Shown: in pieces, positions 79 through 3,720 of the stretch
Position numbering within the stretch: position 1 is the first letter of the stretch
How the letters are laid out: every line of letters begins with the position of its first letter
Assembly (NCBI GenBank): GCA_024398965.1
Contig: JAKSIF010000018.1
Span: forward strand, 1 to 55,647
DNA from: Fibrobacter sp.
GTDB lineage: Bacteria; Fibrobacterota; Fibrobacteria; Fibrobacterales; Fibrobacteraceae
DNA: 55,647 bases
Direction of reading: 5' to 3'
Made by a program: the position numbers and the translations under genes
Notes under the pieces: model-generated
Told to the model about the DNA's origin: nothing
Seen by the model: the letters and a program-made list of their open reading frames with translations, nothing else
The model's database searches: none

Positions 79-1491
79 TTACTTTGTACCTTCGAGGACG
101 GCACGAACGGCACCCAGCTTTTCGTTAGTTTCTTCAAATTCGCGTTCTGCGTTGGAGGCGGCCACAATGCCACCGCCGGCCTGCAGGCTAATCTTCTTGC
201 CCTGCTTGAGGCAGCAACGGATAGAAATGCAGAAGTCCAGGTCGCCATCGGATTCGATGTAGCCTACGGCACCAGCGTAGAAACGGCGCTTGACCTTTTC
301 CAGGCCAGAAAGGATTTCGATGGCGCTGATTTTGGGAGCGCCGCTCACCGTACCTGCAGGGAAACTGGAACGGAGCACTTCGATAGACTTCTTGAGGGGG
401 CTGACCTTGCCTTGGACGTCGGAAACCAGGTGGATCACATGGCTGTACTTTTCGCATTCCATGTACTTCACGGTGTCGACGGTGCCGGCAGAGCAGACGC
501 GGCCCAGGTCGTTACGAGCCAGGTCAACCAGCATCAGGTGTTCTGCGCGTTCCTTGGGGTCGGCCTTCAGTTCCTTCATCAATTCTTCATCTTCCAGGTC
601 GTTCTTGCCGCGGCGGCGGGTACCTGCGATGGGGTGGATGGTGGCAATACCGTCACGGACGCGGACCAGGCTTTCGGGAGATGCGCCGATAAACTGGTGG
701 GTGCCGTAATCCAGGTAGAACATGTAGGGGGAGGGGTTCACGGAGCGGAGGCGGCGGTAAATGTCCAGAGCCTCGATGTCGCTAGTGAACTGGATGCGGC
801 GGGAAGGCACTGCCTGAACGATGTTGCCTGCCACAATGTGCTTCTGCAGTTCCACCACCTTTTCGGTGTATTCTTCCTTGGACTTGGAAAGATCGGTAAC
901 GGTAACGCCCTTGGCCACTTCCGGTTCCGGAGCCAGGTAGCTGAAGTCCATGTCTGAAAGGCGCTTCTTCACGTTTTCGATTGCGGCAGGCAGGTCGATC
1001 TGGTGTTCTTCGTAGTTCAGGGCGAACAGGTGAAGCTTTTCGGTGTAGTGGTCGAATACGATGTAGATATGACCCACCATGAATTCGGCTTCAGGAATGT
1101 TCAGTTCATCTACCTGGGGTGCCAGGTTAATGGTATCGCAGCGGGCGCAGAATTCGTAACCCAGGTAGCCTACGCCAGAGGAGGGAATAGGAATCTGGTT
1201 AGGGGGCACGGTGTTTTCTGCGGAAATCTTCATGAGGGCGTCCAAAATGTCGCCTTCGCCTTCCTTGAGGAAAACGCTTTCCTTGCCATCGACGACGATG
1301 GACACGTCCTTTTCATTCTGGCGGAGACGGAAGCCTTCGTCCACCATCAGGGTGGAGTAACGGCTCTTGCCGTGGGCGAAAGAGGCGGATTCGAAGATAG
1401 CCTTTGCTCCCAGCTTCTTGCCGAGAGAGAAGGGTGTATAACGTTCGCCGGGGAGGGCGACGTAGATGCTGTCGGTACGAGGTTCAGTCAT
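79..1491 (-). CDS. trpE: Anthranilate synthase component I
   Basis: This 470-residue chorismate-utilising enzyme makes anthranilate from chorismate and ammonia, the first step of tryptophan synthesis. The C-terminal half carries the family signatures: IGASPE, PIAGTRRRG, the LVDLARNDLGRV stretch, FPAGTVSGAPK and the late QAGGGIVAASN. Length is normal for TrpE. Near the N-terminus IFESASF occupies the place of the LLES feedback-inhibition motif but matches it only partly. The start at 1491 has GAAGGA six nt upstream. Regulation is evident in the 270 nt upstream, where a Trp-rich leader peptide and attenuator sit in the same direction. PabB or isochorismate synthase are less likely given that leader. 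Confidence 0.93.
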   Translation of the reverse strand: MTEPRTDSIYVALPGERYTPFSLGKKLGAKAIFESASFAHGKSRYSTLMVDEGFRLRQNEKDVSIVVDGKESVFLKEGEGDILDALMKISAENTVPPNQIPIPSSGVGYLGYEFCARCDTINLAPQVDELNIPEAEFMVGHIYIVFDHYTEKLHLFALNYEEHQIDLPAAIENVKKRLSDMDFSYLAPEPEVAKGVTVTDLSKSKEEYTEKVVELQKHIVAGNIVQAVPSRRIQFTSDIEALDIYRRLRSVNPSPYMFYLDYGTHQFIGASPESLVRVRDGIATIHPIAGTRRRGKNDLEDEELMKELKADPKERAEHLMLVDLARNDLGRVCSAGTVDTVKYMECEKYSHVIHLVSDVQGKVSPLKKSIEVLRSSFPAGTVSGAPKISAIEILSGLEKVKRRFYAGAVGYIESDGDLDFCISIRCCLKQGKKISLQAGGGIVAASNAEREFEETNEKLGAVRAVLEGTK

Positions 1492-1516
1492 TTTTAATCC
1501 TTCGTTTTAAACTCGC

Positions 1517-1530: not shown

Positions 1531-1604
1531 AATTCTTTTTGGCGAGGCTTTACGACCCGAAACAGGGTAGTGGTTCCGACCCGGAGGATTTCAATTTGTC
1601 TTGG

Positions 1605-1639
1605 AAAAATTTAAGGCCTCCAGGGAGTCTGGAAGCCTT
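1605..1639 (-). terminator. Attenuator terminator (3:4 hairpin) of the trp leader
   Basis: On the minus strand AAGGCTTCCAG (1639-1629) pairs with CTGGAGGCCTT (1623-1613) over 11 bp with one U-G wobble and a 5-nt loop. It is followed by AAATTTTT (1612-1605). It lies between the leader peptide and trpE, so it would end transcription before the structural genes. Confidence 0.85.
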
Positions 1640-1705
1640 GCCGCTTTGCTCTTACGCTTTTGACGCGCGATACAATTTGCAAATACCAGACTCTATGTTA
1701 GAGTC
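1605..1705 (-). promoter_or_regulatory. trp operon transcription attenuator (segments 1-4)
   Basis: Four segments can be read on the minus strand. Segment 1 is GACTCTA (1705-1699) and overlaps the end of the leader peptide. It pairs perfectly with segment 2 TAGAGTC (1695-1689). Segment 2 extended, GAGTCTGG (1693-1686), is exactly complementary to CCAGACTC (1632-1625) in segment 3, forming an antiterminator. Segment 3 alternatively pairs with segment 4 (1623-1613) to form the terminator. Ribosome stalling at the two Trp codons (1715-1710) would cover segment 1 and free 2 to pair with 3. The complementarities are seen directly; the mechanism is inferred from the enterobacterial trp model. Confidence 0.85.
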
Positions 1706-1757
1706 CGCGCCACCATCGGCCGTCGAATGCAACTGTAAGAGCATAAATCATTTTCAT
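1698..1757 (-). CDS. trpL: trp operon leader peptide (19 aa)
   Basis: The reading frame encodes MKMIYALTVAFDGRWWRGL and then TAA. Tandem Trp codons TGG TGG lie at 1715-1710, four codons before the stop. The stop codon falls at the base of the 1:2 hairpin, as expected for a stalling sensor. A second in-frame ATG at 1751 is possible. No Shine-Dalgarno is obvious. A promoter-like pair of hexamers ends 6 nt before the first ATG, so the message may be leaderless. The frame is too short for standard gene calling, but the Trp codons, position and hairpins together make it convincing. Confidence 0.85.
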   Translation of the reverse strand: MKMIYALTVAFDGRWWRGL

Positions 1758-1763
1758 GTCCAA

Positions 1764-1792
1764 AATTTATGAATATCCCTACCTGTTGGCAA
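1764..1792 (-). promoter_or_regulatory. Promoter of the trp leader/operon
   Basis: On the minus strand TTGCCA (1792-1787) is followed after exactly 17 nt by TAAATT (1769-1764), a good match to a housekeeping sigma-70-type promoter. The -10 ends 6 nt before the leader-peptide ATG at 1757, so initiation would fall at or within a few nt of that ATG. Confidence 0.65.
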
Positions 1793-1974: not shown

Positions 1975-3720
1975 TTGTATCTTCGACAGATTTTATTTGC
2001 AATCCTGGGGATTTTTTTCCAGGTTTCCATGGTTTTGGCCCAATCCATGGATTTTGTGGATACACCTCTGCAGGAGGTTATTCGCGCTGTTTCCCTTGCC
2101 TTTGATACGCCGATCCTTGTGGATGGAAATGTTGAACGCAAGGTGACTTTTCATTTGGATGGTCTTGGATTCCTGGAAGGGGTGACTGCCTTATGTGAGG
2201 CGAACGGGCTGGAACTGGTTCAAGATGGCAATGTTTATCGCGTTCGGAATAGGACTTGGCGGGGGGAGCATGAGTTCCGATGGATAGCCCCTCCCGAAGG
2301 AACGGCAGATTCCCTAGTGGATGTTTCTGTCAGGGAAAAGGATGTGCGGGAATTTGTCCGGGAGTATGCCCTGAACTCAGGATTGAATATCCTGATGTCG
2401 CCAGAGGTGCAGGGCCAGATTTCGGGCGAACTGCACCGGATGCAGCCCCGTAAGGCGTTTGTCAGCCTTATGCAATCCTGCGGTTTCCGTATTCGCGAGA
2501 TGAACGGCTATCTGTACGTCCAAATGCCCAAAGCGAAAAATTCCAATGACGGCTCCGGGGAAGACAAGGTCCGTATCGAGCGAAATGATTCGTTGTACTC
2601 CGCCAGCATCAAGGACGCTCCCTTGATGGATGTACTGGTGGAGTTGTCCGAAGTGGCTGCCTTGAATTTGGCAATGTATGGCGATGTTCGTGAAACGGTG
2701 CGCCTGAAATTTGAGGACGTTTCCTTGCAGGTTCTGATTGAAGCCCTTTTCAAGGGGCGTGGCCTCAGTTATGCCCTGGATGGAGGAACGTTGTACGTTT
2801 CCGAAGGTGGTTCGCGGAACGCCCTTATGAGTACAAGGCTGTATCCGTTAAAACACGTTCATTCCGAGAAGGCCTTGAATTATCTGGGAAAATTTTCATC
2901 GGGGTCCAATTATGTTGCTACGGAAATCAAGGAGCAGAATGCTTTGCTTTTAGGCGGGTCCGCTGCAGAAATCCAAATGGCGGAAGCCATCTTGTCGCAG
3001 ATAGATGTTCCAGCCCTGCAGGTCACGCTTTCCTGCATTATCGTGGAATTCAAGAAAGGCAATCTGTTTGAAATCGGGCTTCGTGGGGGCGCTGCTAGAA
3101 AATCTGCCGCGGGAGATTTAAACCTAAGGGGCTATCTGGATTTCTTGGGGAAGGATCGTTCCGGAGTTGGAGCTGTTGGAAAAATCGGTCTTCTGCCGGA
3201 CCGCTTCGAGATGGAGCTTGCCTCCATGGAAGAACGTAACGAGGCCGAGATTCTTGCCCGCCCAAAGCTGACCACCTTGAATGGGAACAAGGCGGAACTT
3301 AATGTGACCAATACGGTTTATTACCTGGTGAGCCAAGTTTCTGCCGAGGGTTATCCCATTACGGATTATCGCTCCTTCAATGATGGCATTTCGTTGGAGT
3401 TGACCCCCTCCGTAACTCAGGAGGGGAGCATTACGCTGGAGGTTTCTCCCGAGATTAAAACAGCGGGGCGAAGCTCTGGCGATGGCCCAAGGGATATTAG
3501 CACAAGAAACTTGAAAACGATGGTGCGGCTGAAGGATGGAGAAACCCTGTGCCTAGGAGGATTGATTCGAAAGAATAAATCGGAGGTTCGTTCCGCAGTA
3601 CCGTTCCTAGGGAGCCTGCCTTTTATTGGAAGACTGTTCAGCTATACTTCCGAGGAAGAGGAGACCAACGAGCTGGCCATTTTCATAACGCCCAAGGTGG
3701 AATCTCATGGTGCTCCGTAG
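1975..3720 (+). CDS. Secretin (GspD/PilQ family outer-membrane channel)
   Basis: A 581-residue secretin forming a gated outer-membrane ring for type II secretion or type IV pili. The start is TTG at 1975, chosen because AAGAAGG sits four nt upstream and the result is a clean signal peptide (ILFAILGIFFQVSMVLAQ). It begins with an STN-like domain (MDFVDTPLQEVIRAVS), then further N-domains including YPLKHVHSEKAL. The C-terminal secretin core contains LLLGGSAAEIQMAE, ILARPKLTTLNGNKAEL, LGGLIRKN and VPFLGSLPFIGRLF. It is the first gene of a five-gene overlapping cluster. GspD and PilQ cannot be separated with confidence; no GspE- or GspF-like genes are in the window. Confidence 0.88.
   Translation: MYLRQILFAILGIFFQVSMVLAQSMDFVDTPLQEVIRAVSLAFDTPILVDGNVERKVTFHLDGLGFLEGVTALCEANGLELVQDGNVYRVRNRTWRGEHEFRWIAPPEGTADSLVDVSVREKDVREFVREYALNSGLNILMSPEVQGQISGELHRMQPRKAFVSLMQSCGFRIREMNGYLYVQMPKAKNSNDGSGEDKVRIERNDSLYSASIKDAPLMDVLVELSEVAALNLAMYGDVRETVRLKFEDVSLQVLIEALFKGRGLSYALDGGTLYVSEGGSRNALMSTRLYPLKHVHSEKALNYLGKFSSGSNYVATEIKEQNALLLGGSAAEIQMAEAILSQIDVPALQVTLSCIIVEFKKGNLFEIGLRGGAARKSAAGDLNLRGYLDFLGKDRSGVGAVGKIGLLPDRFEMELASMEERNEAEILARPKLTTLNGNKAELNVTNTVYYLVSQVSAEGYPITDYRSFNDGISLELTPSVTQEGSITLEVSPEIKTAGRSSGDGPRDISTRNLKTMVRLKDGETLCLGGLIRKNKSEVRSAVPFLGSLPFIGRLFSYTSEEEETNELAIFITPKVESHGAP

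Follow-up and report, generated by a model that had tools for sequence, protein, structure and literature searches.

We describe here a leader upstream of trpE in a Fibrobacter sp. that is almost certainly a ribosome-mediated transcription attenuator of the E. coli trpL class. It lies in a window of 55,647 nucleotides (the whole stretch of DNA that was analysed), and every anatomical test applied to the sequence places it among the predicted ribosome-mediated trp attenuators. This reading is built on observations of five kinds, namely the anatomy of the element, its conservation, the co-variation of its arms, the spacing of its promoter and the thermodynamic states of its RNA. The parts of the locus are as follows.

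79 to 1491, minus strand: trpE, anthranilate synthase component I, 470 aa, by profile match to TIGR00564
1787 to 1792, minus strand: -35 box TTGCCA, from sequence and comparison across leaders
1764 to 1769, minus strand: -10 box TAAATT, its final base 6 nt before the leader ATG
1698 to 1757, minus strand: predicted trpL leader ORF of 19 codons, translated as MKMIYALTVAFDGRWWRGL and followed by a stop
1710 to 1715, minus strand: regulatory codons TGG TGG (W15, W16), invariant in the first-compared trpE and trpB leaders
1699 to 1706, minus strand: strand 1, GGACTCTA, which overlaps the leader stop codon
1686 to 1695, minus strand: strand 2, TAGAGTCTGG, with strand 1 or strand 3 as its partner
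1625 to 1632, minus strand: strand 3, antiterminator part, CCAGACTC, conserved in its 2:3 pairing
1629 to 1639, minus strand: strand 3, 5' arm of the terminator, AAGGCTTCCAG, in 3:4 pairing with double changes at 6 of 9 pairs
1613 to 1623, minus strand: strand 4, 3' arm of the terminator, CTGGAGGCCTT, in 3:4 pairing
1605 to 1609, minus strand: terminator U-run TTTTT, from sequence
1580 to 1592, minus strand: conserved element S5, GAAATCCTCCGGG, with strand 4 or the trpE Shine-Dalgarno sequence as its candidate partner
1498 to 1502, minus strand: trpE Shine-Dalgarno sequence AAGGA, from sequence

The NCBIfam profile TIGR00564 (trpE_most) matches the TrpE of the window with an E-value of 4.7e-143, below the curated cut-off. 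The contig begins just beyond the trpE stop codon; in relatives, a trpGD fusion follows trpE. On the other side, the plus strand carries a divergent neighbour at 1975-3720, an ORF of 581 aa that looks secretin-like by eye.

An earlier note on this DNA had described a 19-codon frame with tandem Trp codons upstream of trpE, a 1:2 hairpin, an exact 2:3 antiterminator of 8 nt and a 3:4 terminator of 11 bp with a U-run, and all of these are present on the minus strand at the coordinates given. The frame runs from 1757 to 1698. In the 1:2 hairpin GACTCTA (1705-1699) pairs with TAGAGTC (1695-1689), with an additional outer G.U, and in the antiterminator GAGTCTGG (1693-1686) and CCAGACTC (1632-1625) form 8 exact base pairs. 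The terminator joins AAGGCTTCCAG (1639-1629) to CTGGAGGCCTT (1623-1613) in 11 bp that include one G.U, and its U-run is short: the sequence 3' of the stem reads AAATTTTTC, with just 5 U that begin 3 nt past the stem, after AAA. Strands 1 and 3 share the motif GGACTC, and both direct it at GAGTCC in strand 2.

When the window was scanned for a WW leader combined with a terminator and an antiterminator, the trpE leader was the only site found, while 150 first-order Markov shuffles gave on average 3.14 WW-ORFs each; a WW-ORF together with a terminator averaged 0.04 per shuffle, and the full set of three parts never appeared. The folding energy of the 201-nt region has a z of -2.69, equalled by 1 of 200 shuffles. 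Since the motif recurs in dozens of Fibrobacter genomes and its arms co-vary, it is no chance match.

The promoter stands at a fixed place relative to the leader ORF. Among 128 distinct leaders, a variant of the -35 box (TTGCCA, TTGACA or TTGCCG) occupies the -35 place in 116, the spacer measures 17 nt in 119, and the end of a sigma-70-type -10 box falls 6-7 nt upstream of the first in-frame ATG in 110, several of the exceptions to this last spacing being cases in which the scan picked another site. A Shine-Dalgarno core is absent from 138 of 147 leaders. Because the -10 box of the window ends 6 nt before the ATG, transcription is predicted to start at base 1757 (+/-1) and to yield a leaderless mRNA; that is, the leader transcript should start at the ATG itself. 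The earlier note had held that a start downstream of base 1600 would speak against attenuation, and the conserved promoter puts the predicted start at or beside 1757 instead.

The folding states of the leader were computed in silico, with a ribosome represented by masking a footprint whose length was assumed from established knowledge. In the unmasked RNA the pairing probabilities of 1:2 and 3:4 are 1.00 and 0.97. With a ribosome stalled on W15 or W16, 2:3 forms with a probability of 0.75-0.78, or of 1.00 as long as strand 4 has yet to be transcribed; a ribosome placed at the stop codon lets 3:4 form (0.95). Given the assumed footprint, the Trp codons are so placed that the masked stalled ribosome covers strand 1 and the terminating one strand 2.

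From this we infer ribosome stalling, termination and a response to tryptophan, which would work as follows. RNA polymerase would initiate at the ATG of the leader, followed by a ribosome that translates the leaderless message into the leader peptide. Under a shortage of charged tRNA-Trp this ribosome would stall at codons 15-16 and cover strand 1, so that 2:3 pairs, the terminator is blocked and transcription runs on into trpE. With ample Trp it would reach the stop codon inside strand 1 and cover strand 2, upon which 3:4 would form and transcription terminate. If the leader is not translated at all, 1:2 and 3:4 would both form. A separate feature of the window clade is a perfect long-range pairing of GCTCTTAC with GTAAGAGC (window 1735-1742 and 1648-1655, minus strand), which links the leader ORF to the spacer between strands 2 and 3 and would need an untranslated leader to form.

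A simpler account would take the hairpin as an ordinary terminator, whose role is to insulate trpE or to stop a transcript arriving from upstream, and the frame as a chance ORF that is left untranslated. Terminators are common, and a leader that lacks a Shine-Dalgarno sequence would suit this account. However, the neighbouring gene is divergent, conservation extends to the Trp codons and to all three pairings, three different trp genes are preceded by WW frames with terminators, and the distance from promoter to ATG is fixed, all of which makes an ordinary terminator extremely improbable.

The co-variation of the arms bears directly on the attenuator reading. Pairs were counted on 56 distinct sequences aligned to a model because MAFFT shifted strand 4 by one base between the window clade and the rest; the 2:3 pairing is absent from the model and so receives the fairer test. 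In these counts, which are indicative since relatedness makes the sequences interdependent, pairing of 3:4 reaches 100% of cells, with 47 double-changed cells and 6 of 9 pairs changed on both sides; 2:3 is paired in 95.2% of cells, with 11 double-changed cells, and drops to at most 67% when slid by one; and 1:2 is paired in 93.6%. One position shared by 1:2 and 2:3 is mismatched in the main Fibrobacter trpE type (C.A in 10 of the 56 sequences). The columns S2-27, S3-71 and S4-78 switch jointly from C-G-C to U-A-U, and such a joint change in three strands is what mutually exclusive helices would demand. When strand 2 of each of 18 lineages was set against strand 3 of its own and of other lineages, own pairs reached -14.7 and cross-lineage pairs -10.5 kcal/mol (permutation p < 1e-5, subject to the same relatedness). 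The mutual exclusivity of the three helices, which the earlier note had claimed, is thus backed both by the pair counts and by this matrix. Its expectation that close relatives would keep the Trp codons and the pairings through compensatory changes is likewise borne out, strictly for 2:3 and 3:4 and somewhat less so for 1:2.

Within the genus the element is general. Every Fibrobacter trpE upstream region first looked at has the leader, and 17 trpE leaders served to build a covariance model, with rough E-values, that finds a match in 70 of 80 Fibrobacter genomes and in 39 of the 40 with a completeness of 90% or more and a contamination of 5% or less. Four further matches of the model (L091, which is the G034 match with E 0.008, L093, L095 and L101) were rejected as false; they lie in or beside unrelated coding genes and have no tandem Trp codons. 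All collected leaders carry tandem Trp codons, two or three according to lineage, in a collection that was seeded on TGGTGG and of which the covariance-model search yields largely the same set.

Beyond the genus, most of the other genera of the family that were examined have the element, and matches to the covariance model extend to other genera and to a sister family. In the genera g11, g12, g13, g15, g16 and g17 and in the sister family f2, trpE or trpB is preceded by a WW or WWW leader that has all three pairings. The genera g14 and g9 have leaders ending FWWWSLS and RRWWWPL before a divergent trpE (38-40% identity), and no attenuator was seen upstream of trpE in the six g10 genomes examined. 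Taken together, the predicted attenuator is family-wide in Fibrobacteraceae. The genomes examined of f3, in the same class, have no WW leader upstream of trpE. Elsewhere in the phylum two differently built WW leaders precede trpE, one (FWWRSF..., G110/L203) with a Shine-Dalgarno sequence and a terminator and the other (RPWWRWC..., G040/L032) with a terminator. The absence from f3 and these two WW attenuators of other build would be as compatible with turnover or repeated gain as with deep ancestry. Thus, while the earlier note had expected the element to bear on whether the mechanism is ancient or convergent, it supplies material for that question and does not by itself settle the origin. With roughly 150 leader loci, spread over at least nine genera, the collection is a natural data set for attenuator evolution, in which mutual exclusivity is kept while the number of codons, the place of the stop and the register of pairing all drift.

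The attenuator is also repeated within genomes. The genome of the window has a second copy (G000:C20, L002), before trpB, whose leader reads MKMINVLCENFDGRWWRRL and then a stop; such a copy before trpB is general in Fibrobacter, mostly with three Trp codons (RFNRWWWGSRT). A further copy precedes the trpCF fusion in G078, G055, G079 and G017. In G008 and G042, in which trpCF follows a gene end resembling trpD, no separate attenuator was found before trpCF, and a search of the window's genome for trpCF gave no match. Where the genes downstream of attenuators could be identified, they serve only Trp synthesis (trpE, trpB, trpCF), and the copies would make trpB(A), as well as trpCF in some species, answer to the signal that governs trpE. 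In 21 genomes, no match over the cut-off was found to the trpR profile PF01371, nor any to the T-box family RF00230, while the E. coli control and the T-box positive controls were detected. For Fibrobacter, which is among the major degraders of fibre in the guts of herbivores, this amounts to a concrete and testable control circuit for all branches of Trp synthesis, apparently one without TrpR or T-boxes.

The history of the copies is modular. The trpE genes of G156-G158 are 89% identical to that of the window and those of G153 and G154, of the same genus, 62-64%, and all five have a g12-type leader (...WWWRTS.SEYAC). In G164 trpE is 94% identical to that of the window, yet its leader reads RFWWWQAL, and its trpB leader is of the window type. 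Genes for trpE have been exchanged independently of their attenuators, which stayed. Fibrobacter-like trpE behind attenuators of another lineage was seen at L174-L176, L182 and L184 (g12) and at L173 and L090 (G164). Within the window clade, the leader of trpE resembles that of trpB (89% in G063, 76% in the window) more closely than either resembles its counterpart in other Fibrobacter (about 56-64%), which suggests exchange between copies.

Some species carry an additional tandem copy upstream of the trpB attenuator, which keeps a strong promoter and a terminator and has no tandem Trp codons (L063:2480-2565, minus strand; L064, L066, L067, L068 and L137; weaker in L134, L139 and L069). Its leaders read, for example, MKLAIRFDACAACDEVLE... 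or MKWAIRFCRSRRSSREGI, the latter closed by a stop. This copy may be a decayed attenuator or the source of a small RNA.

Among known systems, E. coli trpL (Rfam Trp_leader) shares with the Fibrobacter element a pair of adjacent Trp codons shortly ahead of the stop, a trpE operon under regulation, which is predicted in Fibrobacter, and four strands whose 1:2, 2:3 and 3:4 pairings exclude one another. It differs in its predicted leaderless start, in its copies at trpB and at some trpCF, and in that no TrpR was found. The E. coli trp leader, too, resembles the WWR motif placed two or three codons before the stop. At the Rfam gathering score no family matched; at E up to 10, Trp_leader gave no match and the best match was a non-significant one to Phe_leader (E 1.6).

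Horizontal acquisition of the attenuator from Proteobacteria has to be weighed, for this WWR motif also resembles the B. japonicum leader MSTAVAPARLWWRTS (PMC7298713). We consider such a transfer very unlikely. The TrpE of the window fits trpE_most (477 bits) and not trpE_proteo (270), and the lack of a Trp_leader match even at E 10 also speaks against it. Leaders of other genera end WWWQTQ, WWWPL and WWWSLS, so the shared WWR ending can reflect the spacing from codon to stop. Moreover, among 84,980 named species genomes the exact trpE motif occurs in 41 stretches, 40 of them from Fibrobacter and one from 'Fibrobacterales bacterium Fibro_02'.

Other parallels lie outside the enteric bacteria. 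In S. meliloti trpL is leaderless and begins at its ATG, and trpE attenuation has been reported without transcriptional repression (PMC7298713). Sinorhizobium meliloti trpLE(G) thus resembles the Fibrobacter element in its trpE attenuation and in a leaderless trpL, which is predicted in Fibrobacter; in contrast, it has another leader peptide, and only trpE(G) of its three trp operons is attenuated as against up to three here (PMC7298713). The full architecture does occur here outside Proteobacteria, as the earlier note had proposed, yet it does not lack precedent: classical trp attenuators are found in Corynebacterium and Streptomyces, in C. diphtheriae on two trp operons (PMC1262725). The actinobacterial attenuators likewise have two or three UGG codons and conserved complementary triples in antiterminator and terminator, their gGCC-rGCy-GGCC standing against the Fibrobacter GGACTC (strands 1 and 3) directed at GAGTCC in strand 2 (PMC1262725). 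Non-proteobacterial, multi-operon and leaderless trp attenuators are therefore each known already (PMC1262725, PMC7298713), as is the kind itself; new are the combination of features, the family-wide spread and S5. The portions of the literature accessible to us contain no report of a Fibrobacter attenuator, and an earlier prediction may exist, e.g. in Lopatovskaya 2010 (cited in PMC4833913).

The element S5 (GAAATCCTCCGGG) lies about 20 nt past the terminator in Fibrobacter trpE leaders, between variable flanks, and its positions -3 to +8 are 91-100% conserved. It could extend transcription attenuation to a second level, with its CCUCC also controlling the translation of trpE, and we put the chances of this somewhat below even. 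With 3:4 formed, S5 would pair with the trpE Shine-Dalgarno sequence (SD), and read-through mRNA would not be translated; with 2:3 formed, the free strand 4 would pair with S5 first and release the SD. That S5 is kept although its flanks vary speaks for such a switch, as does an SD:S5 pairing with a mean probability of 0.99 when 3:4 is formed (leaders <140 nt). The pairing is, moreover, matched by lineage: in G062, CAGTCCT/AGGACTG has a duplex energy of -14.1, as against about -4 with a Fibrobacter-type S5, and in f2, GCTCC/GGAGC reaches -15.1, as against about -3 to -4 for the f2 S5 with other SDs. Once strand 3 is removed, the probability of strand 4:S5 reaches 0.6 in the window clade, and in the window itself this pairing prevails (0.60); however, even with strand 3 removed S5:SD is the favoured equilibrium pairing in most species (mean 0.72), and release of the SD would therefore have to be kinetic. 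Also against the switch, the S5:SD pairing of the window itself is weak (probability 0.02; duplex -8.7), neither L050 nor the g17 trpE leader has an S5, none was seen in g11-g16, and composition alone lets SD and anti-SD pair easily. The full picture, a two-level leaderless attenuator of one Fibrobacterales lineage in which the ribosome's position would set transcription and the fate of strand 4 would set translation through S5 and the SD, with sister copies on other trp operons, is tentative, and slightly more doubtful than the switch itself.

Three minor observations concern inserted sequence and distant relatives. In some species (L006, L031, L107, L109) repeat-like inserts of ~90 bases lie between the terminator and trpE, and in L065 a repeat-like peptide, CHCEEQSDEAI, is found inside the TrpCF reading frame. 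Lastly, in G165 (L171, near 1149, minus strand) a leader reading MKNVTSINFWWWQAL, closed by a stop, lies upstream of a distant TrpB-like gene of 36% identity.
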